A stretch of DNA of 64,000 nucleotides from an uncultured Polaribacter sp. (GCA_943787375.1 CALSME010000005.1:1-64000); one strand, 5' to 3'; positions 9,152 to 60,239 are shown, counted from the stretch's first letter. Notes: generated by a model not told the origin, from the letters alone. A program made the numbers and translations.

Positions 9152-9991
9152 TTATTTTGTTTCTTCCGTAGGAGTTGCTGCTTTTACTTCTTCCGCTTTT
9201 GGAGCTGCTTCGGTATCTGCTTTCACTTCTTTTGCTTTAGGAGCCTCTTTCGATGCTACTGCAGCTGCTGCTTTTGGCGCTTCTTTCGTTTTTTCTTTAT
9301 CTGCTTTTCTGCTAGATAAACCTTCAGCGATTGCATCCGTAACGTGCGTTAACACTCTTTCAATAGATTTAGAAGCATCATCATTTGCTGGAATTACATA
9401 ATCTACCAATCTAGGATCAGAGTTTGTATCTACCATTGCAAAAATTGGAATGTTCAATTTCATGGCTTCTGCAACTGCAATGTGTTCTTTTTTAATATCT
9501 ACTACAAATAAAGCGCCTGGTAAACGAGTCATGTCTGAAATAGAACCTAAATTCTTTTCTAATTTCTCTCTCTGACGATTGATTTGTAATTTCTCTCTTT
9601 TAGACAATGCATCAAAAGAACCATCTAACTTCATTCGGTCGATGGTTGCCATTTTCTTAACCGCTTTACGAATCGTCACAAAGTTGGTCAACATTCCTCC
9701 AGGCCATCTTTCTGTAATGAAAGGCATACCTACAGCTTTTGCTTTTTCAGCAACGATGTCTTTTGCTTGTTTTTTTGTTGCAACGAATAAAATTTTACGC
9801 CCAGAGTTTGCAATTTTTTGCAAAGCATCTGCACTTTCTTCTATTTTTGCAGCAGTTTTATACAAGTCAATGATGTGTACACCATTACGTTCTGTATAAA
9901 TATAAGGAGCCATGTTTGGATTCCACTTTCTAGTTAAGTGACCAAAATGTACTCCATTTTCTAATAATTCTTGAATATTTACTTTTGCCAT
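9152..9991 (-). CDS. rpsB: 30S ribosomal protein S2 with low-complexity Lys/Ala/Glu C-terminal tail
   Basis: LLENGVHFGHLTRKWNPNMAPYIY...ERWPGGMLTN. Confidence 0.97.
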   Translation of the reverse strand: MAKVNIQELLENGVHFGHLTRKWNPNMAPYIYTERNGVHIIDLYKTAAKIEESADALQKIANSGRKILFVATKKQAKDIVAEKAKAVGMPFITERWPGGMLTNFVTIRKAVKKMATIDRMKLDGSFDALSKREKLQINRQREKLEKNLGSISDMTRLPGALFVVDIKKEHIAVAEAMKLNIPIFAMVDTNSDPRLVDYVIPANDDASKSIERVLTHVTDAIAEGLSSRKADKEKTKEAPKAAAAVASKEAPKAKEVKADTEAAPKAEEVKAATPTEETK

Positions 9992-10024
9992 TTTTTTAAA
10001 TGTGTTTACGTTCTGTTTTGTATC

Positions 10025-10057
10025 AATAAATAAGTAGTCTTTCGAGTCTTATTTATT
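10025..10057 (-). promoter_or_regulatory. Candidate leader stem-loop between rpsI and rpsB
   Basis: Perfect 10-bp stem AATAAATAAG/CTTATTTATT with 13-nt loop, 34 nt upstream of the rpsB start. Confidence 0.4.
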
Positions 10058-10135
10058 TAGATGCTAAACTGTTTAATATTAAATATGTGTAATAATAACA
10101 GTTCCCAATAACATAATCCTGAACTTTTCGAAGGA

Positions 10136-10522
10136 TTAACGTTTCGAGAATTGGAATTTTTTACGTGCTTTCTTCTGACCAAATTTCTTACGTTCAACCA
10201 TTCTAGGATCACGTGTTAGTAAACCTTCTGGTTTTAATACTAATCTGTGTTCTTCGTTAATTGCAACTAAAGCTCTTGTAATTGCCAAACGAATTGCTTC
10301 TGCTTGACCCGTTACACCACCTCCGTATACATTTACTTTGATATCATACGATTCTAAGTCTCCAGTTAACATTAAAGGTTGTTGTACTTTATATTGTAAA
10401 GTTCCTGTTGTGAAATAGTCCTTGTAGTCTTTTTTGTTTACAGTGATATTTCCTTTTCCTTCTGAAAGATAAATACGAGCTACAGCTGTTTTTCTTCTAC
10501 CGATTTTGTGTACTATATCCAT
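10136..10522 (-). CDS. rpsI: 30S ribosomal protein S9
   Basis: GRRKTAVARIYL...RDPRMVERKKFGQKKARKKFQFSKR. Confidence 0.97.
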   Translation of the reverse strand: MDIVHKIGRRKTAVARIYLSEGKGNITVNKKDYKDYFTTGTLQYKVQQPLMLTGDLESYDIKVNVYGGGVTGQAEAIRLAITRALVAINEEHRLVLKPEGLLTRDPRMVERKKFGQKKARKKFQFSKR

Positions 10523-10977
10523 TATTTAAGATCGTTAAGGTTAATAGCTTTAGGTTCTTGACCTGCTTGTTTGTGCTCTCCTCCTGCATATACATACAAG
10601 TTTCTGTAAAGTGCCGCTCCTAAAATATTTTTAGGCAACATTCCTTTTACTGCTTTTTCGATCAATCTTGTAGGATCTTTCTCAAACATTTCTGTTGCAG
10701 TTAACGATCTTTGTCCACCTGGATACCCCGTATGACGGATGTAAGACTTCTCAGTCCATTTCTTTCCAGTTAAAACAATTTTTTCTGCGTTGATAATAAC
10801 CACGTTGTCTCCACAATCTACGTGAGGAGTAAAGTTTGGTTTGTATTTACCTCTAATTAGCTTTGCTACTATAGAAGCTAGACGACCCAACGTTTGCCCG
10901 TCTGCATCAACTAAAACCCACTCCTTGTTTACGGTAGCGCTGTTTGCTGATACTGTTTTGTAACTTAATGTGTTCAT
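10522..10977 (-). CDS. rplM: 50S ribosomal protein L13
   Basis: WVLVDADGQTLGRLAS...RHTGYPGG...KGMLPKN. Confidence 0.97.
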   Translation of the reverse strand: MNTLSYKTVSANSATVNKEWVLVDADGQTLGRLASIVAKLIRGKYKPNFTPHVDCGDNVVIINAEKIVLTGKKWTEKSYIRHTGYPGGQRSLTATEMFEKDPTRLIEKAVKGMLPKNILGAALYRNLYVYAGGEHKQAGQEPKAINLNDLK

Positions 10978-11186
10978 AATTACACTTTTAGTTTTTGTTT
11001 GTTAATAATAATTTATTTTCCTTAAAAAAGGAGTGCAAATGTACTGTTATTTATTTGATTGTCAAAGGGTGAATTGGAATTATCTTTTTTGTTTCTCATT
11101 ATTTACCAATACAACTAAAATTTAACATCTATTTGTGAAAATAGAAAGTTACTTTTGCACTTCATTTAGAATCTTTTGAAAAAAAA

Positions 11187-18535: not shown

Positions 18536-18547
18536 TAAATGATCCGG

Positions 18548-18796
18548 TTAATTGTATCTTTTTTTTCTATTATTGATTTCATTATGCCCATTTTCTATAG
18601 TTCCGTTTGTTGCTGTCCATTGATAGGAGGTAGCGTTTTGAGACAATTTTGTTACATTTACAATTGCTTGATTTTCGCTGAATAGAATTTCAGTTTCAAA
18701 ATCGGAAACGACAGCCATCAAGGAATCATCATTTTTATGGCAACAAAGTAGGAAAAGGCTTGCAACAATTGTTAAGATAAAACAGGACCTGTTCAT
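18548..18796 (-). CDS. Short lipoprotein, apparently a truncated PKD-like domain remnant
   Basis: Lipobox-like LFLLCC; SYQWTATNGTIENG PKD-like start but stops after 82 aa. Confidence 0.4.
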   Translation of the reverse strand: MNRSCFILTIVASLFLLCCHKNDDSLMAVVSDFETEILFSENQAIVNVTKLSQNATSYQWTATNGTIENGHNEINNRKKRYN

Positions 18797-18881: not shown

Positions 18882-19031
18882 GACTACAACTATTGTGGCA
18901 TAAGGTGTTAATGTAAGATTAGTTGCGTGTTTCGAACTTTAAAGTTAGTAAATAAAACACAAATGGAGCGGCTGTGATCACTTTCGTAAGAAAACTAGAA
19001 CCTAGCATTTAATTTTATACGGTGTTGGGTG
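18882..19031. repeat. attC-like site a (degenerate, left end of array)
   Basis: GACTACAAC...GCATAAGGTGTTAATG / CATTTAATTTTATAC GGT GTTGGGTG; same TATAC-NNN-GTT geometry as the other sites; imperfect stem. Confidence 0.45.
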
Positions 19032-19036
19032 TAGTT

Positions 19037-19567
19037 TTATTTTTTAATTTGCTGAATGATGTAATCCTTAACTCTATTTCCATCTTTTAAAACATCGTTA
19101 ACTTCGTCCTTGTTAATTGCATCATTTTTTCCTTTGTGTTTTTGATACTGTAATGTTTCGTTGATAAAGTAATAACGACTTTCCCAAGCATATAAATCTT
19201 TAAAATTCTTCCACTTACCATTTTTTTTCTGTTCAACAAAAAATTCAAAACTCTCGTAGGCATAAATGAGTTTATTCTCCCAAAAGTACCATTCAGTTGA
19301 AAGTTGGCCATTTTTGGTCATACTAATTGATATTATTCTATTGATTGTATCATTTTTTGAGTGTGCAGTAATACTCATGCCGTATGTTTTTACTTGGCGT
19401 AAACATTTTTTTGTCAAATAAAAAAATGTTTTGTCTTTATCATTATAGATTTTTGATGTATTCTTTTTGATTGCATCAACAACAGTCGAATCTCCAATAA
19501 CTAATTCTTGTCCTTTTGTAGAAAAGCAGAACATTATTAAAATCAATGAAATTATATTTTTATTCAT
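19037..19567 (-). CDS. Secreted hypothetical protein (cassette gene)
   Basis: 176 aa with signal peptide MNKNIISLILIMFCFSTKGQ. Confidence 0.7.
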   Translation of the reverse strand: MNKNIISLILIMFCFSTKGQELVIGDSTVVDAIKKNTSKIYNDKDKTFFYLTKKCLRQVKTYGMSITAHSKNDTINRIISISMTKNGQLSTEWYFWENKLIYAYESFEFFVEQKKNGKWKNFKDLYAWESRYYFINETLQYQKHKGKNDAINKDEVNDVLKDGNRVKDYIIQQIKK

Positions 19568-20189
19568 AATCAGGTATGTTTAATCCAAGAATAATATCTC
19601 TTTTTATGACAAGAAATTCATCTTGTTTTTCAGGGTTAATGATTCCCGAACCACCTCTTTGACGTAACCTGTTTTTTTCTTGGTTTGTTAAGAGCGAGTC
19701 ATTTTTAAACATAAAGTCATCAATGTAATACTCATTTTTATCTGGCTCTTTCACTGTTATGTGAATATGATTTGGTGCATGACCATTTGGGTATGGTGAG
19801 GGTCTAAAAGTGTAAAATTCATATTTTCCGTTTTTTCCTGTTTTAATCCAACCACGAATAAATCCGTGTCTTTTTGCCCATCCTTTTTCATTAACTTTAG
19901 TTTCATCTACACCATTTTGGTTTGTATGATAGATATATAAAATTACATTTTTGGCAGGTGTTTTTCCATCTTTCTTATAAACTGTTCCTGCAATTTTTAG
20001 TTTTGGTTCAGATTCTCGAAATTTAGGTAAAGTGTCTGTTGGTTTTAATCTTTTGTTTCCATACTCAAAAATAGCTTCACATCCTTCACAAGGTCCATCA
20101 ACGATTTGACTTGTGTCATTTTTCTTTGTTTGTGAATGACAAGAAGTTATTGTGAATAGACAAATCAATATGTAAGTGTAGATATTCAT
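19560..20189 (-). CDS. Lipoprotein related to intradiol ring-cleavage dioxygenases (cassette gene)
   Basis: Lipobox TITSC; IAGTVYKKDGKTPAKNVILYIYHTNQNG...FRPSPYPNGHAPNHIHITV; start chosen at MNIYTY. Confidence 0.75.
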   Translation of the reverse strand: MNIYTYILICLFTITSCHSQTKKNDTSQIVDGPCEGCEAIFEYGNKRLKPTDTLPKFRESEPKLKIAGTVYKKDGKTPAKNVILYIYHTNQNGVDETKVNEKGWAKRHGFIRGWIKTGKNGKYEFYTFRPSPYPNGHAPNHIHITVKEPDKNEYYIDDFMFKNDSLLTNQEKNRLRQRGGSGIINPEKQDEFLVIKRDIILGLNIPDYE

Positions 20190-20201
20190 TTTTTTTAAAT
20201 A

Positions 20202-20385
20202 CCGCCAACGTGTTCGTGTATGATTTCGTTTTGTTTTGGACGAGGCTGACTGAACGGGACAATTTTGACTTGGCAAAATAGTGAAGACAGCCGATCTCAG
20301 GTTTCAATTTAGGCAAATTATTATTTATAGTAGAATTTCGCAACATACAGATTCCGCAAAATGAATTATACACGTTGTTGTAACC
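20202..20385. repeat. attC-like site b
   Basis: CCGCCAAC GTGTTC GTGTATGATTTCGTTTTG ... CGCAAAATGAATTATACAC GTT GTTGTAACC. Confidence 0.8.
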
Positions 20386-20390
20386 AGTTA

Positions 20391-20975
20391 TTATTCTATT
20401 ATTTTTTCTTTACTAGCTCCAAGCCAGTATTCAATGAAAGAATCAAAACTGAAAATTAATACAATAATTAGAATAGTAATTCCAAAAGTGATTAATCTTT
20501 GTCTAATAGGAACACTAGTTTTTGATTGAAAGTTAGTAAGCTTAATGACTGTATCTTTAACTAATTCTTTATTGAAAAATAGAATTAATAATAACATTAG
20601 AAGAACTATTATAGCATTGGCCAATGCAGGATAGACATCAAGAAAAATAATATCGAATACAATTATATTTACCATTATAGGTAATAATATCAATACTCCT
20701 ATCAATTTTGTTTTATTCCATAATAGAAACCAAGCTCCTAAAAGTTGAAAAACACCAACGAAGAAAATATAAATATATGAGTGTCCCATAAATGTCCAAG
20801 CCAATGAAAATCCACTTGCCTCACTTAATGTTGTATTTGCAACTTCAGTAGGTAAATTTCCATTCATATAAAATTGACCACCTAATAATTTAGATAGTGC
20901 ATAAATATTAAGAATTATGAAAACGCACTGACGTAATACAAGTTCGAATGAAACTTTGTAATTTGATTTATTCAT
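20391..20975 (-). CDS. DoxX-like integral membrane protein (cassette gene)
   Basis: 194 aa, multiple TM helices, DoxX-like LLGGQFYMNG...FVGVFQLLGAWFLLWNKTKLIG. Confidence 0.6.
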   Translation of the reverse strand: MNKSNYKVSFELVLRQCVFIILNIYALSKLLGGQFYMNGNLPTEVANTTLSEASGFSLAWTFMGHSYIYIFFVGVFQLLGAWFLLWNKTKLIGVLILLPIMVNIIVFDIIFLDVYPALANAIIVLLMLLLILFFNKELVKDTVIKLTNFQSKTSVPIRQRLITFGITILIIVLIFSFDSFIEYWLGASKEKIIE

Positions 20976-21011
20976 TAGTGTCTGATTTGGTTTAGTTTAA
21001 TTGCCTTGAGA

Positions 21012-21584
21012 TTAACTTAAGAATTTGAATACTGATAAATACTTTACAGATTTCCCATTATGGTATCTGAAGGTATTAGATATTACAACTACAAAATTTA
21101 GAATATACATTGCGCTGATAGTTATTAGTATTCCAGCAAAAGAAATGGTTGTTAGTTCAAGTTTTGAGGTAATAAAAAGACCAATAACTAATAAAAACAA
21201 AAGTAATGTCCAAGATATTTGAAAATTTAAAATGGATTTTCCAACATGGTCTATATCCTTTATCTTATCTTTTTTAGAAGTCCAAATAATTAATGGAATT
21301 AGTATACCAAGTAGTGGAAATGCTATAAAGCATAGTTGCGACAAGTTTAATAGTAGTAAAGCTTTACTATCTTCAATAATTTGCCAATCTATTAATTCGT
21401 TAGGTGTAACATTTAAAGCACTAGATAATCTTTTAATGGAATCTCCAGTAGGTTGAGTTTCTCCATTCTCAATTCTCTGAACAGTCCGTAAACTTAACCC
21501 AGAATTTTCTGCCAAGATTTCTTGTGACATACCGTTTCGCTTTCTTAATTCTTTTACTCTTTTTGCTAAATCTTTATTCTTCAA
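21012..21584 (-). CDS. XRE-type HTH regulator with C-terminal DUF4870-like membrane domain (cassette gene)
   Basis: VKELRKRNGMSQEILAENSGLSLRTVQRIENGETQPTGDSIKRLSSAL followed by several TM helices. Confidence 0.85.
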   Translation of the reverse strand: MKNKDLAKRVKELRKRNGMSQEILAENSGLSLRTVQRIENGETQPTGDSIKRLSSALNVTPNELIDWQIIEDSKALLLLNLSQLCFIAFPLLGILIPLIIWTSKKDKIKDIDHVGKSILNFQISWTLLLFLLVIGLFITSKLELTTISFAGILITISAMYILNFVVVISNTFRYHNGKSVKYLSVFKFLS

Positions 21585-21681
21585 TTGAGTGATGTTTAAT
21601 TGTTGAAAGCAAAGCTAAATAAAAGCATTGGCATTGGTGTCGTCATCTTTATGACATCTTTATGTCATCTGTGTTTTAATT

Positions 21682-21752
21682 GGTTACAACGTTAAGTGTA
21701 TGGTGTCGTAGCATCCCGTAGGGTGCTATGCACTATACACATTGTTATGTGC
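21682..21752. repeat. attC-like site c (minimal 71-bp hairpin)
   Basis: GGTTACAAC GTTAA GTGTATGGTGTCGTAGCATCCC GTA GGGTGCTATGCACTATACAC ATT GTTATGTGC. Confidence 0.88.
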
Positions 21753-21805
21753 TGGTTTTTTTGCTTTTGATATTTTTTCAGGGCAAATCTCCCAATCCTT
21801 CTGCA

Positions 21806-23137
21806 TTAATAATTTGTAATGGATGTTAAAAATTCCGTTATGGCAGTCCAATATTCTTCTGCTCCATTTTGTCCGACCCAAAGTGCTTTAGAACCGTGAA
21901 ATCCTTCTGATTTTGGAATAAATTGTATTTGGTTTTCTTTTAATTTTATTCCATTAATCAATGTACTTAATGTTGCAGCCTCTTGTTTTGAAGAAGTTAT
22001 AAAAAAAGGATTTTCTATTTTTGAAAAAATAGAACTTAAAGACGGTTTGTTGTTCTCAAAATAATCTCCTGGACTAAAAGAAATGGAAGCAATGACATTT
22101 TTGTTTTGTAAAGAGTTAAACAATACTAAACTTGAAGAATACGAACTTCCCCAAACAATTACTTTTTTATTGTATTTGTTTTGTAAGAAATTGACAGCAG
22201 ATTCAATGTCCTGTTCTGCATCAATATATTCGGTTGCAAATCCTTTTTCTTTGGCTCTTTCAAATGTTTCGTTTGGTTTTCCTGCAAAGTCCCCTCCTGA
22301 CCTTTGGTCTATAGCTAAACAATTATATCCCAATTCGTTTAGTTTTGGTGCAATATCGGCATATTCCATTTTGTTATATCCTGCTTGGTGGCACAATAGG
22401 ATTATTGGCTTGTCTTTGTCAATCTCATAAAGACTTCCACTAATCAAAAGACCATCTATCGAGTTAAATTTTATGGGAATTGGTTTGTACTTTTTTGTGA
22501 TTTCAGTCATTTGAGGTTGTTGCACACTTTCTTTTATTTTTTGTTGTGCTTGCATCTCTTGTTGGATTAAATTTTCAATCAATTCAACTCTTGTGATTTT
22601 TCCTTCTTCATCAAAATGTATGTAAGATTCACGTATCCCTAAGCGAACAAAATCATACCTCACATTAGCTTTGTCTTTAAAAGTTTCTAAAATGGTTAAA
22701 CTATTTAGTTTGGGCAATTTTGAAACTATATTTTCAAGTATTGCTGATGTATTAGCAATTGGTATAGGGTCAAATTTTAGTTCATTGCTCAAAAATGGCG
22801 AAATAGGTTCTGTAGATTTTTCAGAAAAACTCTGTTCAAAAGCACTAATTTGTTTTGTGTAATCTTGTGCAAATACAAATGTGCTTGTACCGAAAATGAA
22901 TAATAAAATCATATTTGTTTTAGGCGTTTTATCACTCACTATTTTAATTAAATTAGGCAGTAGCATCAAAAATGCACCTAATAAAAATAAATAATTGGGA
23001 AGGTCTTCCACAACGAAATGACTGGAAGTAATCAAATTTAAAATCTTGGTCAATGTAATTGTAGCACCTAAAATTATGAGTACTATTCCTAGCTTTTGGA
23101 TTGCTTTATAATCTTTGAATTTTTTGGATGTTTTCAT
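21806..23137 (-). CDS. Membrane-anchored alpha/beta hydrolase (cassette gene)
   Basis: N-terminal TM segments; ILLCHQAGYNKMEYADIAPKLNELGYNCLAIDQRSGG; nucleophile region VWGSSYSSSL. Confidence 0.8.
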   Translation of the reverse strand: MKTSKKFKDYKAIQKLGIVLIILGATITLTKILNLITSSHFVVEDLPNYLFLLGAFLMLLPNLIKIVSDKTPKTNMILLFIFGTSTFVFAQDYTKQISAFEQSFSEKSTEPISPFLSNELKFDPIPIANTSAILENIVSKLPKLNSLTILETFKDKANVRYDFVRLGIRESYIHFDEEGKITRVELIENLIQQEMQAQQKIKESVQQPQMTEITKKYKPIPIKFNSIDGLLISGSLYEIDKDKPIILLCHQAGYNKMEYADIAPKLNELGYNCLAIDQRSGGDFAGKPNETFERAKEKGFATEYIDAEQDIESAVNFLQNKYNKKVIVWGSSYSSSLVLFNSLQNKNVIASISFSPGDYFENNKPSLSSIFSKIENPFFITSSKQEAATLSTLINGIKLKENQIQFIPKSEGFHGSKALWVGQNGAEEYWTAITEFLTSITNY

Positions 23138-23148
23138 TTTTAATGTAT

Positions 23149-23340
23149 TTACAATGGTTTACGAATACCTAGTTCTTTTTTTAATTTGTTCCATTTGGTA
23201 GTGAGAATAAGGATGAGACCAACATTGAATAAGAGGACATTAACGTACCATGGATAATTTTCAGGCACTATCGGGAAGGCTAATAGCATAATAGTTATCC
23301 CCAAAATTTTCTGGATTTTAATCTGATATTCCTTTTTCAT
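23149..23340 (-). CDS. Small membrane protein (cassette gene)
   Basis: 63 aa, two TM helices, lies between co-oriented genes. Confidence 0.5.
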   Translation of the reverse strand: MKKEYQIKIQKILGITIMLLAFPIVPENYPWYVNVLLFNVGLILILTTKWNKLKKELGIRKPL

Positions 23341-23409
23341 ACTTATGATTTTTTTTGATATTCACATAGTATGTTACAGAACCAACTTAAGAATTACACT
23401 TTTATAGAT

Positions 23410-24060
23410 TTATTTTTCTTGAAGGTCTTTCAAATACAATTTTAGTTGGTCTAGATAATTACCAAATTTGATTTTTTGCTCATAACTTGATAGAAAATAG
23501 AAGAGAAAAATACCTATGAGAAACACCAAGGCGGTTGCTAAAACAACTTCAATAGTACTCATAAAAAAATCTTTCTTGTTATTTAAAAGATAGAATACCC
23601 ACCCTAAAACCATAGCGTTGAACAAAGCACCAAAATACACATTAAGTTTAATTGTTCGCTCCATTATACCTATCACTCTTCCCAAGGATTCCTTAACACT
23701 TGTCGCTATGGTCTGAAAATTCTTAATCTCCCGAAAAGCTCTAAAATTCCAAGAAAGCATCATTGACATAAAGAGAATGAAAGTTGCCATGAAAATTCGA
23801 TTGTCGGTTAGGTCAAGAATATTTTCGTAAAATGTAAATTTTTCTGGTTCCATAAACGAACCTATGAGCATAACTACACAAAGAACCAAGGAAAGACCGC
23901 CAACTGCAAATTTTAGATACATCACTTTTTTGATTTTCGCCAATACGGTTTTTGATTCCTTTTTAATGGATTTCTCAACTACAAATTCATCCATCTTATC
24001 TTTTGAGATAGTCTCTTCAATTACCACATTCCAAATCGACTTTAATTCTAATAGTTCCAT
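23410..24060 (-). CDS. Membrane protein, candidate anti-sigma factor (cassette gene)
   Basis: 216 aa, 4 TM helices, start 2 nt from the stop of the ECF sigma gene. Confidence 0.65.
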   Translation of the reverse strand: MELLELKSIWNVVIEETISKDKMDEFVVEKSIKKESKTVLAKIKKVMYLKFAVGGLSLVLCVVMLIGSFMEPEKFTFYENILDLTDNRIFMATFILFMSMMLSWNFRAFREIKNFQTIATSVKESLGRVIGIMERTIKLNVYFGALFNAMVLGWVFYLLNNKKDFFMSTIEVVLATALVFLIGIFLFYFLSSYEQKIKFGNYLDQLKLYLKDLQEK

Positions 24061-24061
24061 C

Positions 24062-24562
24062 TTATCTATTTTTTATAGTTTTTGAGAGTTTTATTTTTAT
24101 TCTGTTCATTTTTACTCGAACATAATTTTGGGTAATTCCTATTATCTCTGCTATTTCATCATTCTTCTTATCTTCGAGGTAAAGCATTATTATAGCTTTT
24201 TCCACTTTGTTAAGGTCTGAAATGGCTTTATACATTTGTGCTAATTTCTCATCTTCAATAGAGGTTTCGCTTTGTTCAAGCCTTTCTTTAAATTGGTTTG
24301 TTTGGAAGAAAAGTGATTTTTTCTTTTTGACTTTTCTTAAATCCTGAATAGCGACATTTAATGCAATTCTGTACATCCAAGTAGAAAATTTCGCTTCATT
24401 CCGGAAAGAGGGAAATGATTTCCAAAGCTGAATTAATATTTCTTGAAATAAGTCTTTTCTGTGTTCAGGGTTATCACAGTACATTCTGCAAACCTTATGA
24501 ATTATGCCTTGAGATTCAATTATCTTCTCACTAAATATTTTTTCAAGTGTTTTATTTGTCAA
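24062..24562 (-). CDS. ECF-type RNA polymerase sigma factor (cassette gene)
   Basis: NPEHRKDLFQEILIQLWKSFPSFRNEAKFSTWMYRIALNVAIQDLRK ... DEIAEIIGITQNYVRVKMNRIK. Confidence 0.93.
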   Translation of the reverse strand: MTNKTLEKIFSEKIIESQGIIHKVCRMYCDNPEHRKDLFQEILIQLWKSFPSFRNEAKFSTWMYRIALNVAIQDLRKVKKKKSLFFQTNQFKERLEQSETSIEDEKLAQMYKAISDLNKVEKAIIMLYLEDKKNDEIAEIIGITQNYVRVKMNRIKIKLSKTIKNR

Positions 24563-24661
24563 AAGATAAATTTGTTGATTTATTTATGTGAGTTGGAAAA
24601 AGGAAGCCATAATTACAAAAAATGACAATTATTTTTAGATTTCAGTTGGTTTCTTCCGCTT

Positions 24662-24796
24662 GCACATAACGGTCTCGTGTATGAGTAGTAGCGGATTTAT
24701 TTGCGAATACTTTCAGTTGACAATATACTTAATAAAAAAGAAAAACGGTTTGAGTTTACACCCAAACCGCTATTACTTATACACATTGTTAGCCTT
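24662..24796. repeat. attC-like site d
   Basis: GCACATAAC GGTCTC GTGTATGAGTAGTAGCGG ... CCGCTATTACTTATACAC ATT GTTAGCCTT. Confidence 0.88.
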
Positions 24797-24838
24797 TCGT
24801 TTTTTTTAGTCTATTCAGTAATATTTCAAAAATGGTTT

Positions 24839-27217
24839 TTAAAAATTTATACTATATTTTAAGACTGGCAATAGTCCATTAAGTTCTGTCGTGGTTTTTG
24901 TAATCTTATTTGTTACATCATCATAAAAATAATCAGGAACAGTTTTATTAAGCCTATTCGTTACATTTTGAATATTGAGACCTAAACTATGTGTGGATTT
25001 CTTCTTATTCCATTGATAGTTTATACCTAAGTCAAGACGATAATAATCTTTTACTTTTTCTGTATATGGTATGGTAGAAAAAATTTCCGTTTGATTGGCA
25101 ATAGAAGCTAATTCGTCTATAGCTGTAAATCGTTGTCCTCCCGTTAGGTTAAATTTAGTATTAACTCCCAAGGTTTTATTACTTTTATTTCCAATTTTAA
25201 ATTCTTTTCCTGCCAAGAAATTGAACACATAATTTCCATTAAAACGCGTGTTGTAATAACTGGAATTTCCAATTTTATATTTAGAATCGTATAATGACAA
25301 TGTAGTTAAGTAATAGAATCCTTTATTTAAAAAGCGTTCTAGCGTAAATTCTATTCCATAGTTTTTGCCTTTCCCATCATTAGTTAATGGTATATCTGTA
25401 ATATTAAAAACATCGAATAGTTGGGCATTTATTACATTATAGCCTGTTTGTCCAGTGTTATCTACAGGTAGATTAAACAGGTTTTGGTAATAGGCTTCTG
25501 CTTTAAAATGCGTGTTTTTACTTAATCGCCAGCTATATCCCAACACATAATGCAATGCTTTTGATAATCCTAAATTTGTATTCAAAAATTGAGTGTTAGC
25601 GTCTGCTTTCACAAGATAGGTAGACAAGCGTTCGGCTCTACTGTGCAAACCTGCACCAAAGCTTAAAGAGTGTTTGTTGTTTAATTTATAATTAAGTCCT
25701 AAACGAGGTTCTACAGCACTACTATTTGTTTTAGCAAAATGTAAAAAGTGCAATCCTGAATTCAATGTTAATTTGTCTGTTGCTCTATATTTCCATTGAA
25801 AATAACTCTGAAAAACATTACTATTTCCATCTACTTTATCGTTGGTTGGAACTAGATGCCCTTCTGCGTTCGTTCCTGTGTGATAAGAAATCGTTTTTTC
25901 TTTAAGATGACTCAAAGTCAATCCAGTACGAATGGTGTGTTTTGCGTTAAACTTATGATTTATAAAGGAAGATAAACGGAAAGCTTCAATTTTTGAATCA
26001 AATTCACTACCGCTTAATGGGTTTATAACGCCATTATTTTTTGTTTCCTCTTTAAGATTTGCATCGTCTGAAGAGTAAGAAATATTTGTTTTTAAATAGG
26101 TTCTATCTTTTAAAAATATGCGATGTCCTATACCTGTAATAAAAGTACTTACATCATTGTTAGAATTAGTTTCAAAAACACCTGTTGTTTGCGTACCTTG
26201 CTCTTCACTTTCAGAATCTGTTTCTGATGACTTTATGGTATTTTTACCATATAATCCATATACATTAAAGGTTCCCATTTTGGAAGTAGGAAGATTGATA
26301 TTGTAATTTAAATCTTGATAATTTAAGTTGCCACCCTCGCTTAAATTAATACCTATACTTTTTAAAATACTTGGGGTAGAATATCTGTAATTTAATAAAT
26401 AAGATGCCTCACTTTTTTTACTAAAATAGCCTTCTGTAGCAATTCCAAGTCCTAAAAAACCTGCATCAATTGTTGTTTCTCTTTTCTTATTATTTCCTTT
26501 TCGGAATCGTAAATCAAAAACACCTGCTAAACCATTACCATATTCGGCAGGAAAAGCCGAAGTGAAAAAATCGGTCTTATCCAACACATTAGAGCTTAAC
26601 ATACTTACTGCACCTCCTGTAGAATACACAAAATGGTTAGGATTGGGAACTTCTACACCCTCTAATCTCCATAAAAGCGTATTGGGTGAGTTTCCTCTAA
26701 TCACAATTTCGTTATTTAAATCATCACCGTTTCCTGTTACACCAGCAAAATTTTGCACTTGCCTAGCTGGGTCACCAAACGATGCAGCGTATTTATTAGA
26801 TTCTTCAATATTTAAAGAACGTGCACTTACTGTTGAAAATTCGTTAACTGTTTTTTCTTTTCTTTTATCTGCTGTAATTATAACTTCATCTAGATTTTCT
26901 AAATTTTCTATTAATCCAATGTTTAAAAGAACTTCTTTACCTGCGGTTACATTTATATTAGAGAGCGTAATAGTTTCATAACCTACAAATGAAACGATAA
27001 GTGTTTGTTTGCCAATAGGCACATTGTTTAACACAAAGCTTCCATTTTCATCTGAAGTTGTTCCTAAAGACGGATTACTGTCTTTAACAATAATATTAGC
27101 AAAAGGAATGGGTTCTTTAGAGTCTTTGTCTGTTATAACACCTCTAACTGTTTGTTGTGCCGATAACGAAAAAGGCAACACGAAAAATAAAATAATTGAA
27201 AAAAAATTGAGCTTCAT
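24839..27217 (-). CDS. TonB-dependent outer membrane receptor with carboxypeptidase-regulatory-like N-terminus (cassette gene)
   Basis: VRGVITDKDSKEPIPFANIIVKDSNPSLGTTSDENG; plug AGVTGNGDDLNNEIVIRGNSPNTLLWRLEGVEVPNPNHF. Confidence 0.93.
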   Translation of the reverse strand: MKLNFFSIILFFVLPFSLSAQQTVRGVITDKDSKEPIPFANIIVKDSNPSLGTTSDENGSFVLNNVPIGKQTLIVSFVGYETITLSNINVTAGKEVLLNIGLIENLENLDEVIITADKRKEKTVNEFSTVSARSLNIEESNKYAASFGDPARQVQNFAGVTGNGDDLNNEIVIRGNSPNTLLWRLEGVEVPNPNHFVYSTGGAVSMLSSNVLDKTDFFTSAFPAEYGNGLAGVFDLRFRKGNNKKRETTIDAGFLGLGIATEGYFSKKSEASYLLNYRYSTPSILKSIGINLSEGGNLNYQDLNYNINLPTSKMGTFNVYGLYGKNTIKSSETDSESEEQGTQTTGVFETNSNNDVSTFITGIGHRIFLKDRTYLKTNISYSSDDANLKEETKNNGVINPLSGSEFDSKIEAFRLSSFINHKFNAKHTIRTGLTLSHLKEKTISYHTGTNAEGHLVPTNDKVDGNSNVFQSYFQWKYRATDKLTLNSGLHFLHFAKTNSSAVEPRLGLNYKLNNKHSLSFGAGLHSRAERLSTYLVKADANTQFLNTNLGLSKALHYVLGYSWRLSKNTHFKAEAYYQNLFNLPVDNTGQTGYNVINAQLFDVFNITDIPLTNDGKGKNYGIEFTLERFLNKGFYYLTTLSLYDSKYKIGNSSYYNTRFNGNYVFNFLAGKEFKIGNKSNKTLGVNTKFNLTGGQRFTAIDELASIANQTEIFSTIPYTEKVKDYYRLDLGINYQWNKKKSTHSLGLNIQNVTNRLNKTVPDYFYDDVTNKITKTTTELNGLLPVLKYSINF

Positions 27218-27320
27218 AAAAATTATAAGTTTATTTGTTTGGTAAAAAAACTCAACTTGTTATGAAATAGTGTTTAACTGGATAAAGTTGAACAACTACA
27301 TTTTATTGATTGTTTTTAAT

Positions 27321-28424
27321 TTATTGATTTTTAGACTTTTTGTATTGTATAGGTGTCATTCCTATATGCTTTTTAAAAAGCGTATTAAATGTGCTTTTAG
27401 AACCAAAACCACTTTCAAAAGCGACACCTTCCATACTTAAATGTTGTTTTTTTGGATTTTCAAGAAGCGATTTACTATAGTTTAATCTAAATTTATTTAC
27501 ATAGGTGTAAAAGTTTACATTATAGTTTGTATTGATAACAAATGATAAAATATGTGTCCTCGTATTTAATTTGTCGGAAAGTGTAGATAATGAAAGATTT
27601 TTGTTTAAAAATGGTTGTTCTTCTTCCATTAACTTTTCTAGTTTATTAGCGATTTCAAGTCTTAAATTTTTGTCTATAAGTTCTTCTTTTTTAATGTCGT
27701 TTATTTGTGGCGATTCACTTTCAATAGCTTGGATGTGTTTTGGTTTTAATTCAAATATTTCTCGTTGTTGTACAATATGAAAACCACTGTAGAATAAAAT
27801 AATGAATAACATAAGGTTGGAAAAATATGCAAAGTAATTTTCTTCGGAACTTAACTCAAAAACTAAATGAATTATTAAGAGTAATGGAAAGACAAATATT
27901 AAATTATATAGCCAATTTAAACTTACTCCTTGTTTATTAGCGTGAAGCTTTAAAACGTTTTTTTTATGTTTAAAGAGCATCATTATTACAAAATAGAAAA
28001 TGATTGCAGAAAATAAAAAGAGAGCAATTATTGAAAAAGCATCTAAAATTTCATAGTTGTTTTCTAAAAATAGACGATTAGTTTCTGTACTATTTAAAAA
28101 CATCCAAACCATAACCACCATTATAAAAGGAATAAATAGTAGATAATGTTTTTTTAAGAAATGATTTGGCATATTCACAAAGTGATATACTGATAAATAA
28201 AGGAATGAAGGAATAAGAAATTTTATACTTTCAAGGATAATATCTACTCCAAACCATTCTTCAAAAAAATATTCTCCAATTAAGGGAAGTGTAAATAGTA
28301 ATGATATAGCACCAAAAAGAATGGCCAAATATCGATTCGCACTTTTATTAATTCTATTACTTAATGAAAAGGTTACAAAAGCAAGCATTAATGCTACACC
28401 TATTTGCATAAAATAAAACTCCAT
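27321..28424 (-). CDS. AraC-family regulator with N-terminal 7TM-like membrane domain (cassette gene)
   Basis: 7 hydrophobic segments then NVNFYTYVNKFRLNYSKSLL...MEGVAFESGFGSKSTFNTLFKKHIGMTPIQYKK. Confidence 0.9.
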   Translation of the reverse strand: MEFYFMQIGVALMLAFVTFSLSNRINKSANRYLAILFGAISLLFTLPLIGEYFFEEWFGVDIILESIKFLIPSFLYLSVYHFVNMPNHFLKKHYLLFIPFIMVVMVWMFLNSTETNRLFLENNYEILDAFSIIALFLFSAIIFYFVIMMLFKHKKNVLKLHANKQGVSLNWLYNLIFVFPLLLIIHLVFELSSEENYFAYFSNLMLFIILFYSGFHIVQQREIFELKPKHIQAIESESPQINDIKKEELIDKNLRLEIANKLEKLMEEEQPFLNKNLSLSTLSDKLNTRTHILSFVINTNYNVNFYTYVNKFRLNYSKSLLENPKKQHLSMEGVAFESGFGSKSTFNTLFKKHIGMTPIQYKKSKNQ

Positions 28425-28524
28425 ATTTTTTTGAATTCATCTAGTTTTTAAAATAATTCAACGTAGTGCTTTTTTAAATATTGTTTTCGAATTTTTGTTT
28501 AATTACTGGCGGTTTTTCAAAATG

Positions 28525-28748
28525 AAGGCTAACGGCTTGGTGTATGGCCAGTTACGGTGTTAAATAGCTTTTTATTTCGTTTAATCAAGAGCAAGTACAG
28601 CTGTTTTATCCTTATAAATTATCTGGTTGTTAAACCTGATAACAAAATCTATAAACCTAAACTACTGTACTTGCGGTACTCTTGCAAAAAAGAATTAACA
28701 TTTGTACTAGCTATTAGCCGTAATTGGCTATACGCATTGTTGTAGGCA
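28525..28748. repeat. attC-like site e (with internal GCAAGTACAG/CTGTACTTGC arm)
   Basis: AAGGCTAAC GGCTTG GTGTATGGCCAGTTACGG ... CCGTAATTGGCTATACGC ATT GTTGTAGGCA. Confidence 0.88.
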
Positions 28749-28752
28749 GTAT

Positions 28753-29121
28753 TTATTTTTTTTTGATTTTATTAATTAACAATGTGTCTTTTTCAATTGC
28801 TAAGTCAAAAATGTATTTTTCAAATACGGCATTAGAATAATAACCAAAATATTTCTCTATTTTTTTTCCGTTTTGAAAAACTTCCAAAAAGTAACCACCA
28901 TCTACTCCTTTAAGATTCATATCAAGTACTGTTTTAACTTCATCTCCCAAATTAATATTTTTTACCAAGTATTCTTTACTTTGTTTTTCCGTTCCATATG
29001 TTATTTTAAGAGTATCTATAATTGAGCCAGTATTATTTTTTATTAAGAGTTCTGTTTTTTTATCGTCATTACAAGAATATAAAAACATAATAATAACTAA
29101 AATTGAAAAGAGATGCTTCAT
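28753..29121 (-). CDS. Small lipoprotein, hypothetical (cassette gene)
   Basis: MKHLFSILVIIMFLYSCNDDKK lipobox; 122 aa. Confidence 0.65.
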   Translation of the reverse strand: MKHLFSILVIIMFLYSCNDDKKTELLIKNNTGSIIDTLKITYGTEKQSKEYLVKNINLGDEVKTVLDMNLKGVDGGYFLEVFQNGKKIEKYFGYYSNAVFEKYIFDLAIEKDTLLINKIKKK

Positions 29122-29127
29122 AATATT

Positions 29128-30714
29128 TTATTGATTAGTTGGTGTTAATTGTGTAGAAGAATTTATTCCAAAATTAGGTGGCACGACAGGGTCAAGTGGA
29201 GATAAGTAAAAGAGATTTCCAGATAATAATTCTGAATAAACAGAATTAGAAAGCTCTTGGTCAGATACAAAAAAACTTGCATCATCACCAATTGTATGAC
29301 CTATATCATTATTATGTAAATCCATTTGGACTTCTAGAATTAAATTTGCTGGTACCTCACTTTCATGGGCTGTTGAAAAAAGTCTAGCAACTGTATCACC
29401 AGCATCATTAGAGTTCATTGCATTAAAAAATGCATGTCTAAATGCATCCGACTTATCATTTCTAGCACTAAATCCAAATCTGTTTTCGGTTTCGGTTTCA
29501 GCGGGTTCTTTGTTTTCTCTAATAATTAATGCTTGAACCGGAAATGCTACCACTAATAATTTCTCCTCTTTTGTTAAATCGCCAAAACCTTCATCATCCA
29601 AATCGAATGAAAAATTATTGTTTACAAAATCCTCATCTAACCACCATTCAAATGGCATTCCGTCATCTTTACCAGGATAATCGCTTAGTGTGGGATTTGG
29701 TTCATTTGTCTCAATTAAAGCTTCTATGACATCAGATATGAAGTTTGAGTTAGTATTTGTCATGCCGTTTTCAGACATATAGTTTAATAGAATACTTATT
29801 TTGTCAGCGTTATTCGGGTCATTAATCCAAATAATCTGCTCGGTTGATAATGCACTATTTCCGCCAAGAGCATTAATTAAGAAAAGTGGCGCAACAGAAT
29901 TCCCATCTGAATCTGTTGGGATTATTGGTGCGGTAACCGAGTCATCGTTTGTTGGTGTTCCACCTCCACCACCTCCGCCACGCGGTCCGATAGGTCCTTC
30001 GGTATAACCACCACCATCATCACAAGGATAGTCAAAAGTATACCATGTTGTGCTTGGTTGTGTGCCACATTCACATGATTGTCCAGGCCAATGTCCAACA
30101 CAAGGACATTGTGTTTCTACAATAACGTAATAAGAGCCACAACCACTTCGATTGGCAATATTTGAATTCCTGTTTGATGTGTTTGAACTTATATTTTCAA
30201 TTCTTACCGTTCCATTAAATTCAGTGACTATACCATTTGAAATATCATCCAAATATTGTTGGTCTGGAATATAAGAAGCTATATAAGCTCTTTCTCCTTC
30301 ATCGTTGACTTCAACAACCAAGTTTTCAAATAGTCCTACACTTTCTTCTCTGTAAACTTTAAAAGTATATGAAGTATAACCATCAAATTGAACTTGTCTA
30401 ATTTCTGTTGTGTCAATGGTAAAACCATAAACATCATTATTTCCAGTTCTGTTAGCTATATTATTTCCTGCGAATCTGTCTGAAAGGCTCAATCCATTTA
30501 TGATTGAGTTAAAATTACTGTCATTTTGAAAGTCTGAATAACCAGAAACTTTAATATCTAAGTTTCTATTTTGGTATTCATTTGAAACAGGGTTGTCATC
30601 AATTAGGTTTTGTGGTTCTGCATCGTCAGTTTCTTTCTGACACCCAATAACAGTGAGAAATGCAAGTAGTAAAAAAAGTAGTTTTCGGATTGGATTGTTG
30701 ATTTTTGTTTTCAT
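29128..30714 (-). CDS. Lipoprotein with C-terminal DUF6973-like domain (cassette gene)
   Basis: Lipobox LTVIGCQK; Cys-rich middle and GPIGPRGGGGGGG linker; C-terminal RNDKSDAFRHAFFNAMNSNDAGDTVARLFSTAHESE...MDLHNNDIGHTIG. Confidence 0.65.
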   Translation of the reverse strand: MKTKINNPIRKLLFLLLAFLTVIGCQKETDDAEPQNLIDDNPVSNEYQNRNLDIKVSGYSDFQNDSNFNSIINGLSLSDRFAGNNIANRTGNNDVYGFTIDTTEIRQVQFDGYTSYTFKVYREESVGLFENLVVEVNDEGERAYIASYIPDQQYLDDISNGIVTEFNGTVRIENISSNTSNRNSNIANRSGCGSYYVIVETQCPCVGHWPGQSCECGTQPSTTWYTFDYPCDDGGGYTEGPIGPRGGGGGGGTPTNDDSVTAPIIPTDSDGNSVAPLFLINALGGNSALSTEQIIWINDPNNADKISILLNYMSENGMTNTNSNFISDVIEALIETNEPNPTLSDYPGKDDGMPFEWWLDEDFVNNNFSFDLDDEGFGDLTKEEKLLVVAFPVQALIIRENKEPAETETENRFGFSARNDKSDAFRHAFFNAMNSNDAGDTVARLFSTAHESEVPANLILEVQMDLHNNDIGHTIGDDASFFVSDQELSNSVYSELLSGNLFYLSPLDPVVPPNFGINSSTQLTPTNQ

Positions 30715-30766
30715 AAATTTTCCGTTGTTTATCGGTTAATAATTCAGTTTGGTGGGCTGGTAATAT

Positions 30767-30905
30767 TGCCTACAACGGTCTAGTATAAAAATAGTAGCGG
30801 ATTTTCACACACTAACTTTTCGATTAAACACAGACCTTTTTTATATTCACTTACATTCCTTTTAGCGATTAAACCGCTATTATTTTTATACATTGTTAGC
30901 AAACG
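30767..30905. repeat. attC-like site f
   Basis: TGCCTACAAC GGTCTA GTATAAAAATAGTAGCGG ... CCGCTATTATTTTTATAC ATT GTTAGCAAAC. Confidence 0.88.
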
Positions 30906-30907
30906 TT

Positions 30908-32083
30908 TTATAATAATCGTTTTAGTTTGAACTTTATTTTTTTCGTTTTCCCTTCCGAGTTTATAATTGTTAGACAAATCTTTTCATTTTCTTTTGTTAA
31001 CAAATCTCTATAAACTGTAATGTCTCCTGAAGAATCTTTATTTATAGAAATCAATTTATCTCCCTTTCTAATTCCTTTTTTATACGCTGAACTTGTTTCC
31101 TCGGCTCTATCTATTATAATATTACCATCAATCTGTTTAAGTTTAATTCCGCTAACTGGAAATGCAAAAGGTTTACTAAATGCTTTATTAGGCTTTATGT
31201 ATAATGTGCAAGTTGAATAATCTAAAACTAGATTAAATCTACTGATTACTTTTGCTCCTAATATACCGAAATAGTTTTCGTAACTACTCACGCCTTCTTT
31301 ATCGTTTGCTATTCCTACAACCATCTCATCCAATTCATATCCACCGATATTCATTGATTGAATTGCGATATCTTCAGAAATAGATTCTCCGTGTAAATTT
31401 TCAGATTTTGAAATGAGGCTTTTTCCAGCTTTTTCACTTAATTTATGATTTTCATTGTAGGGTGTGTTTATCAGAAACGTTAACCCTGCTCCGCTGTCAA
31501 ATAAAATTTTATCGGTGTATGATTCTCCATTTCTTAAAGTAATACCAATATCAAACTGTGGGATAGGAATACCATTTTCAAATTCAAAGGGCATAGCTTG
31601 ATATCCTATTGTATCTACATCTTGAATTTTATCGTACAAAAGTATTTTTTTATTTTCATAATCAATTTTTGTAATGTACTTCTTGAGTAGGCTATATCCA
31701 ATAATTCCATCAAAATCTCTTTCCAGTGCATTCTTTAATTTAGTTAAATCAGTAAGAACTAAGTGAGTGCTGTCTATTTCAATATTATTTTGAAGGGTTA
31801 GCTTTTGATTAAGGATAATTTCATAAGATTTTGTACCACCAGCACCTGAAACATCTTGCTTATAATTTGCTTTTAAACCTGATTTGTCTGCTGTGTTAGA
31901 ATCCAGCAAATCAGATGTAGCTCCTGTATCAAAAACAAAAGTCTTGTATTCGGAATCATCATTAATGTTTACTTTAAGTAATATCAAATCATTTTTTAAT
32001 TCAAAAGGAATTTCTGCTATTTGCGCATTTAAGCGAATAGAGATAATGAAGACTAAAGATAAAGTTGTAATTATTTGTTTCAT
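30908..32083 (-). CDS. Retropepsin-like aspartyl protease with C-terminal PDZ domain (cassette gene)
   Basis: TFVFDTGATSDLLDS and ILFDSGAGLTFLI motifs; PDZ-like SSAYKKGIRKGDKLISINKDSSGDITVYRDLL. Confidence 0.85.
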   Translation of the reverse strand: MKQIITTLSLVFIISIRLNAQIAEIPFELKNDLILLKVNINDDSEYKTFVFDTGATSDLLDSNTADKSGLKANYKQDVSGAGGTKSYEIILNQKLTLQNNIEIDSTHLVLTDLTKLKNALERDFDGIIGYSLLKKYITKIDYENKKILLYDKIQDVDTIGYQAMPFEFENGIPIPQFDIGITLRNGESYTDKILFDSGAGLTFLINTPYNENHKLSEKAGKSLISKSENLHGESISEDIAIQSMNIGGYELDEMVVGIANDKEGVSSYENYFGILGAKVISRFNLVLDYSTCTLYIKPNKAFSKPFAFPVSGIKLKQIDGNIIIDRAEETSSAYKKGIRKGDKLISINKDSSGDITVYRDLLTKENEKICLTIINSEGKTKKIKFKLKRLL

Positions 32084-32170
32084 TGTATTTCTATTTTCTG
32101 CAAAATTCATTGTTATTTCCGATTTTCTATGTTAAATACAGTTAACGAGTGTTAAAAAAATGGTTCTAAT

Positions 32171-32306
32171 GTTTGCTAACGGCTACTTGTATGGTTAGTG
32201 GCGTGTTAAATTATTATATTTTGGATATGCACCAAACTTTTTTTAATGAAATTAACTTAGAGTTTAGCGATTAGTAGCCATTAACTATACAAATTGTTGG
32301 CACAAG
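32171..32306. repeat. attC-like site g
   Basis: GTTTGCTAAC GGCTAC TTGTATGGTTAGTGGC ... GCCATTAACTATACAA ATT GTTGGCACAAG. Confidence 0.88.
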
Positions 32307-32309
32307 TAC

Positions 32310-33167
32310 TTATTTATACGCAAAAATTAAGGAAAGACCACTTTTTAGTTCAAATGGAAAAACTGAAGTATTTTTATTCAATAACGACCACTTTCCTTCA
32401 TTGATAAATTTATTTGAATAAAATGTTTGGCTTGATTTAGTTGAAGCAAAATTTAACTTGATATAGTTATTTCGCTCATCTTCGATTATAGAATTATTCG
32501 AGTCCTCAAATCCAATAAATTCGATGCCTAAAAATAATCCTTCATTAGGTACTATAATTGAATGGTCTAAATCGAAAATAATAGATTTAGATTTATCCGT
32601 CAAAGAATATATAATATTTTCTGTATTTAGCTTTTTGTCAATTATACCATTTGAGTTAGAATATAAATTTAATCTAAATATTGCCTTTTTTATATCATTA
32701 CTTTTTAACTCAATAAGGTTTTCAATAGGGAACCTAATCTTTGAGATTGTTTTAATATCTTTTTGCTTTTTAAAAAGCACACAAAATTCAGTTTTTGGTT
32801 GGATATACCATTGATGCTTTTCTTTTCTTTCCTTGCTCCAATCATTGGAATCTTTCGATGAAGAAATTATCACTTCATCTAAAAATTGATTTTTTTGAGA
32901 TAACCAAATTGTGTCTTTAACAGTTTTAAATTGAATTTTGATTTCATTGTAAAGAATGTGAGATATTAATAAACTATCATTCTCTGAACAATTTATTCTG
33001 ACAATTCCTTTGCTATCAGAATATTCGCCTTTGTCTTTTCCAATAATAGATACGCTACAATATTCTATTGACTGCTTATTATTTTCATCTATTATGATAA
33101 ACTTTTTTTCTTGAGTAAAACAATAAATTTGGCTAAAAAGTAGTAATAATAATGATGTTTTTTTCAT
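32310..33167 (-). CDS. Secreted protein with carboxypeptidase-like regulatory domain (cassette gene)
   Basis: Signal peptide; KFIIIDENNKQSIEYCSVSIIGKDKGEYSDSKGIVRI. Confidence 0.65.
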   Translation of the reverse strand: MKKTSLLLLLFSQIYCFTQEKKFIIIDENNKQSIEYCSVSIIGKDKGEYSDSKGIVRINCSENDSLLISHILYNEIKIQFKTVKDTIWLSQKNQFLDEVIISSSKDSNDWSKERKEKHQWYIQPKTEFCVLFKKQKDIKTISKIRFPIENLIELKSNDIKKAIFRLNLYSNSNGIIDKKLNTENIIYSLTDKSKSIIFDLDHSIIVPNEGLFLGIEFIGFEDSNNSIIEDERNNYIKLNFASTKSSQTFYSNKFINEGKWSLLNKNTSVFPFELKSGLSLIFAYK

Positions 33168-33214
33168 TTCGATGGAATTAAAATCTGCTTTCTCCTAAAA
33201 GAAAAGCAGATTAA

Positions 33215-33454
33215 TTAACAAGGTACTGCATAATCAGTAGTTTCAGAAACTACTAACCAAAAAACTTGGTAAGTTGTAGTACAATTTTGGTAACAACTTC
33301 CTGGTTCAATTGAGTAAGATGATCCGCAACTTGTAGTTGAACCCCAAAATTTCATTGGTGATTCTTCAGTTCCTTTTGCTGACATCAAAACAAATGATGC
33401 AACAAACAAGCCTAATAAGGCAAGTTTTTTTGATTTTAAAATTGCTTTACGCAT
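33215..33454 (-). CDS. Small secreted Cys-containing peptide (cassette gene)
   Basis: 79 aa MRKAILKSKKLALLGLFVASFVLMSAKGTEE...CGSSYSIEPGSCYQNCTTTYQVFWLVVSETTDYAVPC. Confidence 0.6.
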   Translation of the reverse strand: MRKAILKSKKLALLGLFVASFVLMSAKGTEESPMKFWGSTTSCGSSYSIEPGSCYQNCTTTYQVFWLVVSETTDYAVPC

Positions 33455-33581
33455 AATTAAAAAGGTTTTAAATTTTCGCACTTTACTTTTTAAAGAGTGT
33501 AAAGCACTTGCAGTATCGCCCTCCAAAATGGAAACTCTCTTAAATTGTACTTTATGTTTATCATTTAACTTTTGTTCGTAT

Positions 33582-33635
33582 TTGTGCCAACTATTGTATA
33601 TGCACACCTTTAGGTGTGTATATTTCCGTTATATT
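33582..33635. repeat. attC-like site h (short terminal hairpin at right end of array)
   Basis: TTGTGCCAAC TATT GTATATGCACACC TTTA GGTGTGTATAT TTCC GTTATA; left end complements GTTGGCACAA of site g. Confidence 0.7.
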
Positions 33636-33927
33636 TTTATTTTGTTCCATTGCGCAAATTCTTCAACGTTTAATTGCCACATTTTCAATTTTTTGTTGAA
33701 GTTATAGCATGCGGAGAAGGTTTTTTAAACACCAAAAAAACAGCCCTTCTCTACAAAACTAAGTTAAAAAGGAATTGCTTGTATCTGGAAATAAATAAGT
33801 GGGAATATAGGGGAATAACTGGGCTTATTTGAGTACAACTGGGAATCGTAAGCTCTTAATTTTTAGGTATTTGAGAGTTTTGAGTCGTTGCAATCTATGG
33901 TATTGCACTCCCCAAAAAAGAAGAGTG

Positions 33928-60207: not shown

Positions 60208-60239
60208 AAAAAACCTTTCCCAATACGGAAAGGTTTTTT
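60208..60239 (+). terminator. Terminator after coxA
   Basis: AAAAAACCTTTCCCAATACGGAAAGGTTTTTT. Confidence 0.85.

Follow-up and report, generated by a model that had tools for sequence, protein, structure and literature searches.

The analysed window (64,000 nucleotides of DNA from an uncultured Polaribacter sp., GCA_943787375.1 CALSME010000005.1:1-64000) contains seven cassettes in a row, one of which is decayed. The array is flanked by polA, accompanied by a gene encoding a 126-aa protein, and by a gene for a secreted hydrolase. Its sites were searched for with a covariance model, R1, built on 11 sites, all of which come from the genome of the window. Besides the six sites whose ends had been paired in a first-pass annotation, R1 detected a decayed seventh (63.8 bits, E value of 1.4e-10), absent from the earlier list and not included in the training set, and the array therefore spans ~18.9–33.6 kb of the window. 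In the decayed interval, four of the six variable bases match (GTTGGGTGT at 19024 versus ACCGCCAAC at 20201). The features are listed in Table 1, in which the numbering of the cassettes starts at the attI-like end; this end (33592–33637) was assigned by eye, by comparison with the attI-like sites situated 3' of the recombinase gene in related genomes. Another weak R1 match (60229–60342), which begins in a terminator-like hairpin and enters an apparent coding sequence, was judged to be due to chance. No Rfam family matched the sites.

Table 1. Sites and cassettes of the array (positions in the window).
Feature	Position	Strand	Description	Basis
Site 7	18902–19027	+	decayed; distal end of the array, damaged left arm	R1 match
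Site 6	20207–20380	+	attC-like, long loop, right end GTTGTAACC	end pair and R1
Site 5	21688–21747	+	attC-like, short 60-bp form, right end GTTATGTGC	end pair and R1
Site 4	24668–24791	+	attC-like, right end GTTAGCCTT	end pair and R1
Site 3	28531–28742	+	attC-like, long loop, right end GTTGTAGGCA	end pair and R1
Site 2	30774–30898	+	attC-like, right end GTTAGCAAAC	end pair and R1
Site 1	32178–32299	+	attC-like, right end GTTGGCACAA	end pair and R1
Proximal end	33582–33637	-	start of the first cassette (TTGTGCCAAC), attI-like hairpin and CATATACAATA|GTTGGCACAA on the - strand	inference
Cassette 1	32180–33590	-	ORF 32310–33167 (CarbopepD_reg_2, weak)	
Cassette 2	30776–32179	-	aspartyl protease and PDZ protein 30908–32110	
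Cassette 3	28533–30775	-	ORFs 28753–29121 and 29128–30714 (DUF6973)	
Cassette 4	24670–28532	-	outer-membrane receptor-like protein 24839–27217, AraC-type regulator 27321–28424	
Cassette 5	21690–24669	-	hydrolase 21806–23137, ORF 23410–24060, ECF-type sigma factor 24062–24562	
Cassette 6	20209–21689	-	ORF 20391–20975, HTH/DUF4870 regulator 21012–21584	
Cassette 7	19026–20208	-	decayed ends; ORFs 19037–19567 and 19560–20276 (Dioxygenase_C)	

The first-pass annotation had described the right end of each site as the reverse complement of the left end of the next one. All six pairs were recovered at the positions it gave, as exact reverse complements over 9–10 bp. When the site ends were shuffled, the true pairing (36 of 36 matches over the six bases that follow GTT) was unique among the 720 possible pairings, the next best of which scored 32 (mean 14.3). 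It is also correct that the two outer ends of a single site do not match each other (only 0–4 of six bases). Complementarity is exact over 9–10 bp, but the paired end is really ~13 bp long and includes one wobble. In 466 intervals from the relatives and the window, base 11 matches in 0.2% and bases 12–13 match in ~85%. In a closed hairpin, the fixed stop after 9–10 bp is a conserved G.T wobble within a longer paired end.

Failure of the rule in other arrays of the same sites had been named as the observation that would refute it. The rule withstood this test, since at least six of seven bases matched in 407 of the 466 adjacent intervals, compared with a mean of 46.2 (sd 6.1, maximum 68) in 2000 shuffles within arrays. 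Among loci found through the recombinase described below, most of which belong to other genera, it was obeyed in 86 of 108 adjacent intervals versus 36 of 803 non-adjacent pairs. The rule is broken in 59 of the 466 intervals, many of which probably hide missed sites, a point not shown case by case. A site finder based on regular expressions, with which the rule appeared to be only about half true, was rejected; application of a PWM finder attributed most of those failures to missed sites. In an integron, the ends of a cassette circle complement each other, and the integrated site takes its last bases from the next cassette. Complementary ends of this kind are what integron cassettes should show, and on their own they are nothing new.

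Covariation supports the folding of the sites, with changes on both sides in 11 of the 20 modelled pairs, a number not reached in any of 500 shuffles. Alignment of 531 distinct sites, mostly from relatives, revealed a gap-free inner stem of 16 bp, which carries G.T wobbles at positions 6 (95%) and 11 (78%), with the G always on the same side. The spacers separating the end from the stem are mostly 6 and 3 bases long, and asymmetry lies in them, the inner 16-bp stem being without gaps in most sites (no structure has been determined). The core GTTR is present in 97% of the 531 sites. The classical integron core is RYYYAAC/GTTRRRY (PMC3053210), and only 6.6% of the sites contain GTTRRRY. In silico folding with DNA energy parameters predicts, for the closed site, a more stable structure on the non-coding than on the coding strand in 390 of 391 cases (mean difference 5.1 kcal/mol). 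In 362 of the 391 sites the predicted stability of the closed form also exceeds that of the integrated one. The wobbles explain such a strand bias, as each one turns into an A.C mismatch on the opposite strand.

R1 matches were found in 67 of the 99 genomes searched, mainly within the genus of the window. Single arrays comprise 120, 116 and 86 sites, each array without any site on the opposite strand, as detected with the PWM, which represents the inner arms and barely reads the variable ends. In every array examined a recombinase gene precedes all the sites and is oriented as the cassette genes. At 80 loci collected by homology to this recombinase (nearly all the named ones belong to Flavobacteriaceae), 145 sites were identified downstream and one on the opposite strand, whereas there was no site upstream. 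Sites were detected by the PWM in 30 of the 39 loci having at least 2 kb of downstream sequence, and the covariance model recovered some of those that the PWM had missed (L167). About half of the draft contigs among loci L131–L210 stop less than 2 kb past the recombinase gene, as if the repeated sites had broken the assemblies; the number of arrays in draft genomes is probably underestimated.

An attI-like site lies 30–170 bp past the recombinase stop codon and usually consists of an A+T-rich hairpin, TATATAAC or TATATACA, and the crossover. The sequence at the crossover is complementary to the R' end of the first attC detected, with seven of seven bases pairing in seven of 11 arrays and six of seven in two; in the remaining two a missed site intervenes. 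Within the genus, genomes encoding the recombinase contain a median of 21.5 sites versus 5 in those without it (p = 0.0002; the comparison covers the matches listed, and species are not independent). Several observations count against the integron-like system proposed below: some complete-looking genomes, e.g. G015, contain sites without such a recombinase, some relatives outside the genus encode the recombinase but show few or no R1 matches, no recombinase of this family is encoded in the genome of the window, the array enzymes lack the domain regarded as required for IntI to act on folded sites, and the rule is broken in the 59 intervals mentioned above.

Several individual loci are worth mentioning. 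The genome of the window (G000) carries a second, smaller array (L023 10280–15150; contig C2, ~646.3–651.2 kb), in which two intervals are exact (GTTATCTCC/GGAGATAAC and GTTGTCTGCA/TGCAGACAAC) and the others have decayed. The first cassettes of one sampled array (L119 4479–19529, genome G001) encode AbiH, Abi_C, GmrSD and HSDR_N-type proteins as well as MerT, which suggests a content of phage defence and metal resistance genes. The Chryseobacterium plasmid NZ_CP041688.1 (L211) carries a relative of the recombinase gene (9974–11017) and, downstream of it, a weak R1 site (18547–18669, 31 bits), a region that adjoins a group II intron; this plasmid is a possible mobile form.

The enzyme at the heads of the arrays is a tyrosine recombinase of 379–416 aa (open frame). 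In ten genomes of the same genus with large arrays it represents the best match to the IntI model, and none of the matches in these genomes exceeds the curated IntI cut-off (TIGR02249, 265 bits). The array recombinase scores 197 bits against that model, 219.9 bits against the XerA model NF040815 (cut-off 220), and 185 and 182 bits against the XerC/XerD models TIGR02224 and TIGR02225 (cut-offs 335 and 330). The distance between the KDR and HxxRH motifs is 57–59 aa in all 92 measurable array enzymes, compared with 100 aa in 21 of 21 canonical IntI proteins and 62–69 aa in three Xer-type enzymes. The extra (I2, patch) domain of IntI is absent, and the alignment to VchIntIA (2a3v) breaks exactly there. 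The catalytic residues (R, K, H, R, H, Y) do not vary among 11 members.

In the maximum-likelihood tree, IntI proteins form one clade (100/100), and the array enzymes, together with two recombinases of unknown setting, a separate one (97/90), which joins IntI (99/95) to the exclusion of XerC/XerD. The placement of the array recombinases as a sister clade to IntI is provisional because other recombinases were sampled only to a limited extent. Structure prediction (mean pLDDT 88) gave a model closest to the structures of XerA and IntI, and archaeal Xer proteins are the best PDB matches of the catalytic core in both sequence and fold. For the N-terminal domain of ~80 aa only weak matches to HARP (best E value 0.0012, in two members) and DUF5710 were obtained, with no PDB sequence match below an E value of 0.06 and no fold match at E ≤0.001. 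Of 248 genomes taken from across the phylum, 70 have a canonical IntI, and none of the 70 is in the family of the window.

Other recombinases were considered as catalysts and rejected, i.e. two tandem genes of the window's genome (contig C4, 154.8–156.5 kb) and a short recombinase near the array of contig C2, which are not of the array-heading family. The tandem tyrosine recombinase genes follow Rhs-type and transposition-like ATPase genes (L025 10–6599; G000:C4, ~150.0–156.6 kb). In another genome (G013:C1, ~2093–2286 kb), short tyrosine recombinases form many regularly spaced tandem pairs that are nearly identical to one another and represent a different element family.

Copies of several cassettes of the window were identified in other genomes. 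Cassette 6 is present in G016 and G050 (91% identity), and its start has three different neighbours: in the window it adjoins the site at 21688, in G016 a different site, and in G050 a recombinase-adjacent attI-like site. The identity stops exactly at GGTTACAAC in all three, and the left arm of site 6 is identical to the site that accompanies cassette 6 in G050. A 73% identical copy of cassette 4, found in G030, ends at the boundary, and a copy of the cassette 2 gene with the same level of identity (73%) is present in G013. Cassette 1 has a 94% identical copy in the close relative G023, at ~1587 kb; polA of that genome lies at 972–975 kb, away from this copy, whereas in the window polA adjoins the array. 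Genome G038 contains two arrays ~2.6 Mb apart, which have five cassettes in common (96–100% identity) in different surroundings, and G038 and G054 share one cassette at 99.2% identity. Sequence comparison shows that the cassettes move between arrays as units, with exact breakpoints.

The window's own array is probably a relic. Its attI-like end has been kept but no integrase was found, since a recombinase of the array-heading family is absent from the window and from its genome, which is 79% complete; we infer that the integrase has been lost or is missing from this incomplete assembly. In G050 the recombinase, the attI-like site and a cassette adjoin polA, and in the close relatives G023 and G019 there is no array in the corresponding interval. 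In the former, the closest relative (L267 5527–5809), window positions 17683 and 34120 are directly joined, the missing part being the array and portions of the hydrolase gene and of the gene for the 126-aa protein.

The complete form of the system, as present in the relatives, consists of a recombinase gene and an attI-like site followed by cassettes oriented in the same direction, each with one or a few genes and a 3' site. In a circular cassette, the ends of the single site would be reverse complementary (9–10 bp, the G.T wobble and ~2 more bp), and the non-coding strand of this site may form one long hairpin. The recombinase would most likely exchange strands between G and TTR of the hairpin with attI or another site. 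Insertion would cut the cassette's own core and leave its halves, still complementary, at adjoining sites, which is how the rule seen in the first-pass annotation may arise. The circle closing into one hairpin, proposed there by analogy with integron cassettes, is supported by the persistence of the rule elsewhere and by the recombinase and attI-like site heading the arrays of the relatives; it is further backed by cassettes shared across arrays and species, breaks at the predicted crossover and strand-biased folding. The circles themselves have not been observed.

The sequences themselves show the rule, the hairpin, the order of recombinase, attI and array, and the movement of cassettes with exact breakpoints. 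That the array recombinase catalyses recombination of the sites is inferred, without a recombination assay, and a folded single strand is most likely its substrate, which is likewise inferred and not shown. Overall, the region in the window is best explained, in our opinion with good confidence, as an array of cassettes belonging to an integron-like system found in Flavobacteriaceae. We are evenly divided over the more specific proposal that this is a sister integron lineage lacking I2, whose folded single-stranded sites rely for strand choice on G.T wobbles and long cassette-specific end pairing and not on extrahelical bases.

Three other explanations have to be weighed against this one. The cassettes could be moved on folded DNA by the host XerC/XerD, as in the Vibrio CTX phage, the recombinase at the head of the arrays being only a passenger. 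Both proteins are encoded in the genome of the window, the stem of the site mimics double-stranded DNA, as for the CTX phage (PMC4792948), and arrays exist in genomes without the special recombinase. We nevertheless regard this as unlikely, given that the recombinase heads every array, is directly followed by the attI-like site and is associated with a larger number of sites where it is present. As for the CTX phage, the present system would combine a recombinase lacking I2 with a folded-strand substrate that has no extrahelical bases (PMC4792948); it differs in that the recombinase is a dedicated one and in the presence of an attI-like site and numerous cassettes. The array recombinase resembles archaeal XerA and XerC/XerD in its catalytic core, but is distinguished from them by the extra ~80-aa N-terminal domain and its placement at the array head, and it groups with IntI, not with bacterial XerC/XerD.

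An ordinary integron whose canonical IntI is encoded in the missing fifth of the genome would be compatible with the integron-like anatomy and with the 79% completeness of the assembly. This is very improbable: no canonical IntI match was obtained in the genome of the window or in the listed genomes of the same family (against the 70 of 248 phylum-wide), nothing exceeded the IntI cut-off in the ten genomes of the genus with large arrays, and GTTRRRY is rare among the sites. The sites are also intergenic hairpins present in many copies per genome, and could in principle be terminators, dispersed repeats or some other kind of hairpin that takes no part in gene movement. The first-pass annotation had found such an origin hard to reconcile with the ends, and we give it hardly any credence, as it is contradicted by the interval-specific complementarity (407/466), the strict bias in strand and order, and the shared units with exact breakpoints.

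The integron-like system favoured here shares with integrons, especially the sedentary chromosomal super-integrons, an integrase, attI, a long one-way array and cassettes composed of a gene and a 3' site, as well as the AAC/GTT crossover, the complementary circle ends, the better folding of the bottom strand and the movement of whole cassettes between arrays. The integrase stands at the array head in the relatives, though not in the window, whose incomplete genome has none. The attI-like site lies beside it, the first cassette is joined there, and cassette 6 occupies such a site in G050 (no insertion assay is available). In contrast to integrons, the array integrase lacks the I2 domain, forms a clade separate from IntI and is oriented as the cassettes; the core is GTTR followed by cassette-specific bases instead of GTTRRRY, the ends pair over ~13 bp with a fixed wobble, and the inner 16-bp stem has G.T wobbles and no consistent bulges. 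With its seven sites and no integrase, the window array resembles a CALIN (at least two standard-model attC sites without an integrase), but its sites depart from the attC consensus that has been described, and the complete forms in relatives carry a different integrase. A link to the attC sites of Polaribacter phage P12002L, which are recombined by IntI1 (PMC9892861), was rejected; there is no R1 match in this phage, and thus the IntI1 experiment on its attC sites is not transferable. The system appears integron-like by the sequence tests available, and it has not been filed as a member of the integrons because two defining features, the IntI domain and the GTTRRRY core, failed. The new elements here are the integrase, which lacks the IntI-specific domain, and the sites, which deviate from this core.

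The defining components of integrons are IntI, attI and attC, and what sets IntI apart is its extra domain (PMC9024848), which is termed unique and necessary for activity in the title of Messier and Roy 2001, as cited in PMC2426708. With IntegronFinder 2.0, a complete integron in Bacteroidetes proper was reported only in Salinibacter (PMC9024848), and Bacteroidota are not among the 11 taxa for which taxon-specific attC models were built (PMC8352920). IntegronFinder is reported to have detected no integrons in one Tenacibaculum genome (PMC10013915), which was not checked for the present arrays. No paper on these arrays was found in the open-access literature searched; since preprints and most subscription journals were outside its scope, an earlier description cannot be excluded.

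The findings point to an integron-like system, widespread among marine flavobacteria, whose enzyme lacks the domain thought to be essential for integron integrases. If this is true, a very common group of marine bacteria would possess large cassette reservoirs that are missed by standard searches. A sister lineage without I2, if confirmed, would represent either integrons as they were before I2 evolved or an invention made in parallel. Escudero et al. (PMC4792948) formulated a chicken-and-egg paradox: how could selection have favoured the domain when there were no attC sites yet, or attC sites when the domain was still absent? A working integron without the extra domain, if real, would bear directly on this paradox and on the origin of integrons.
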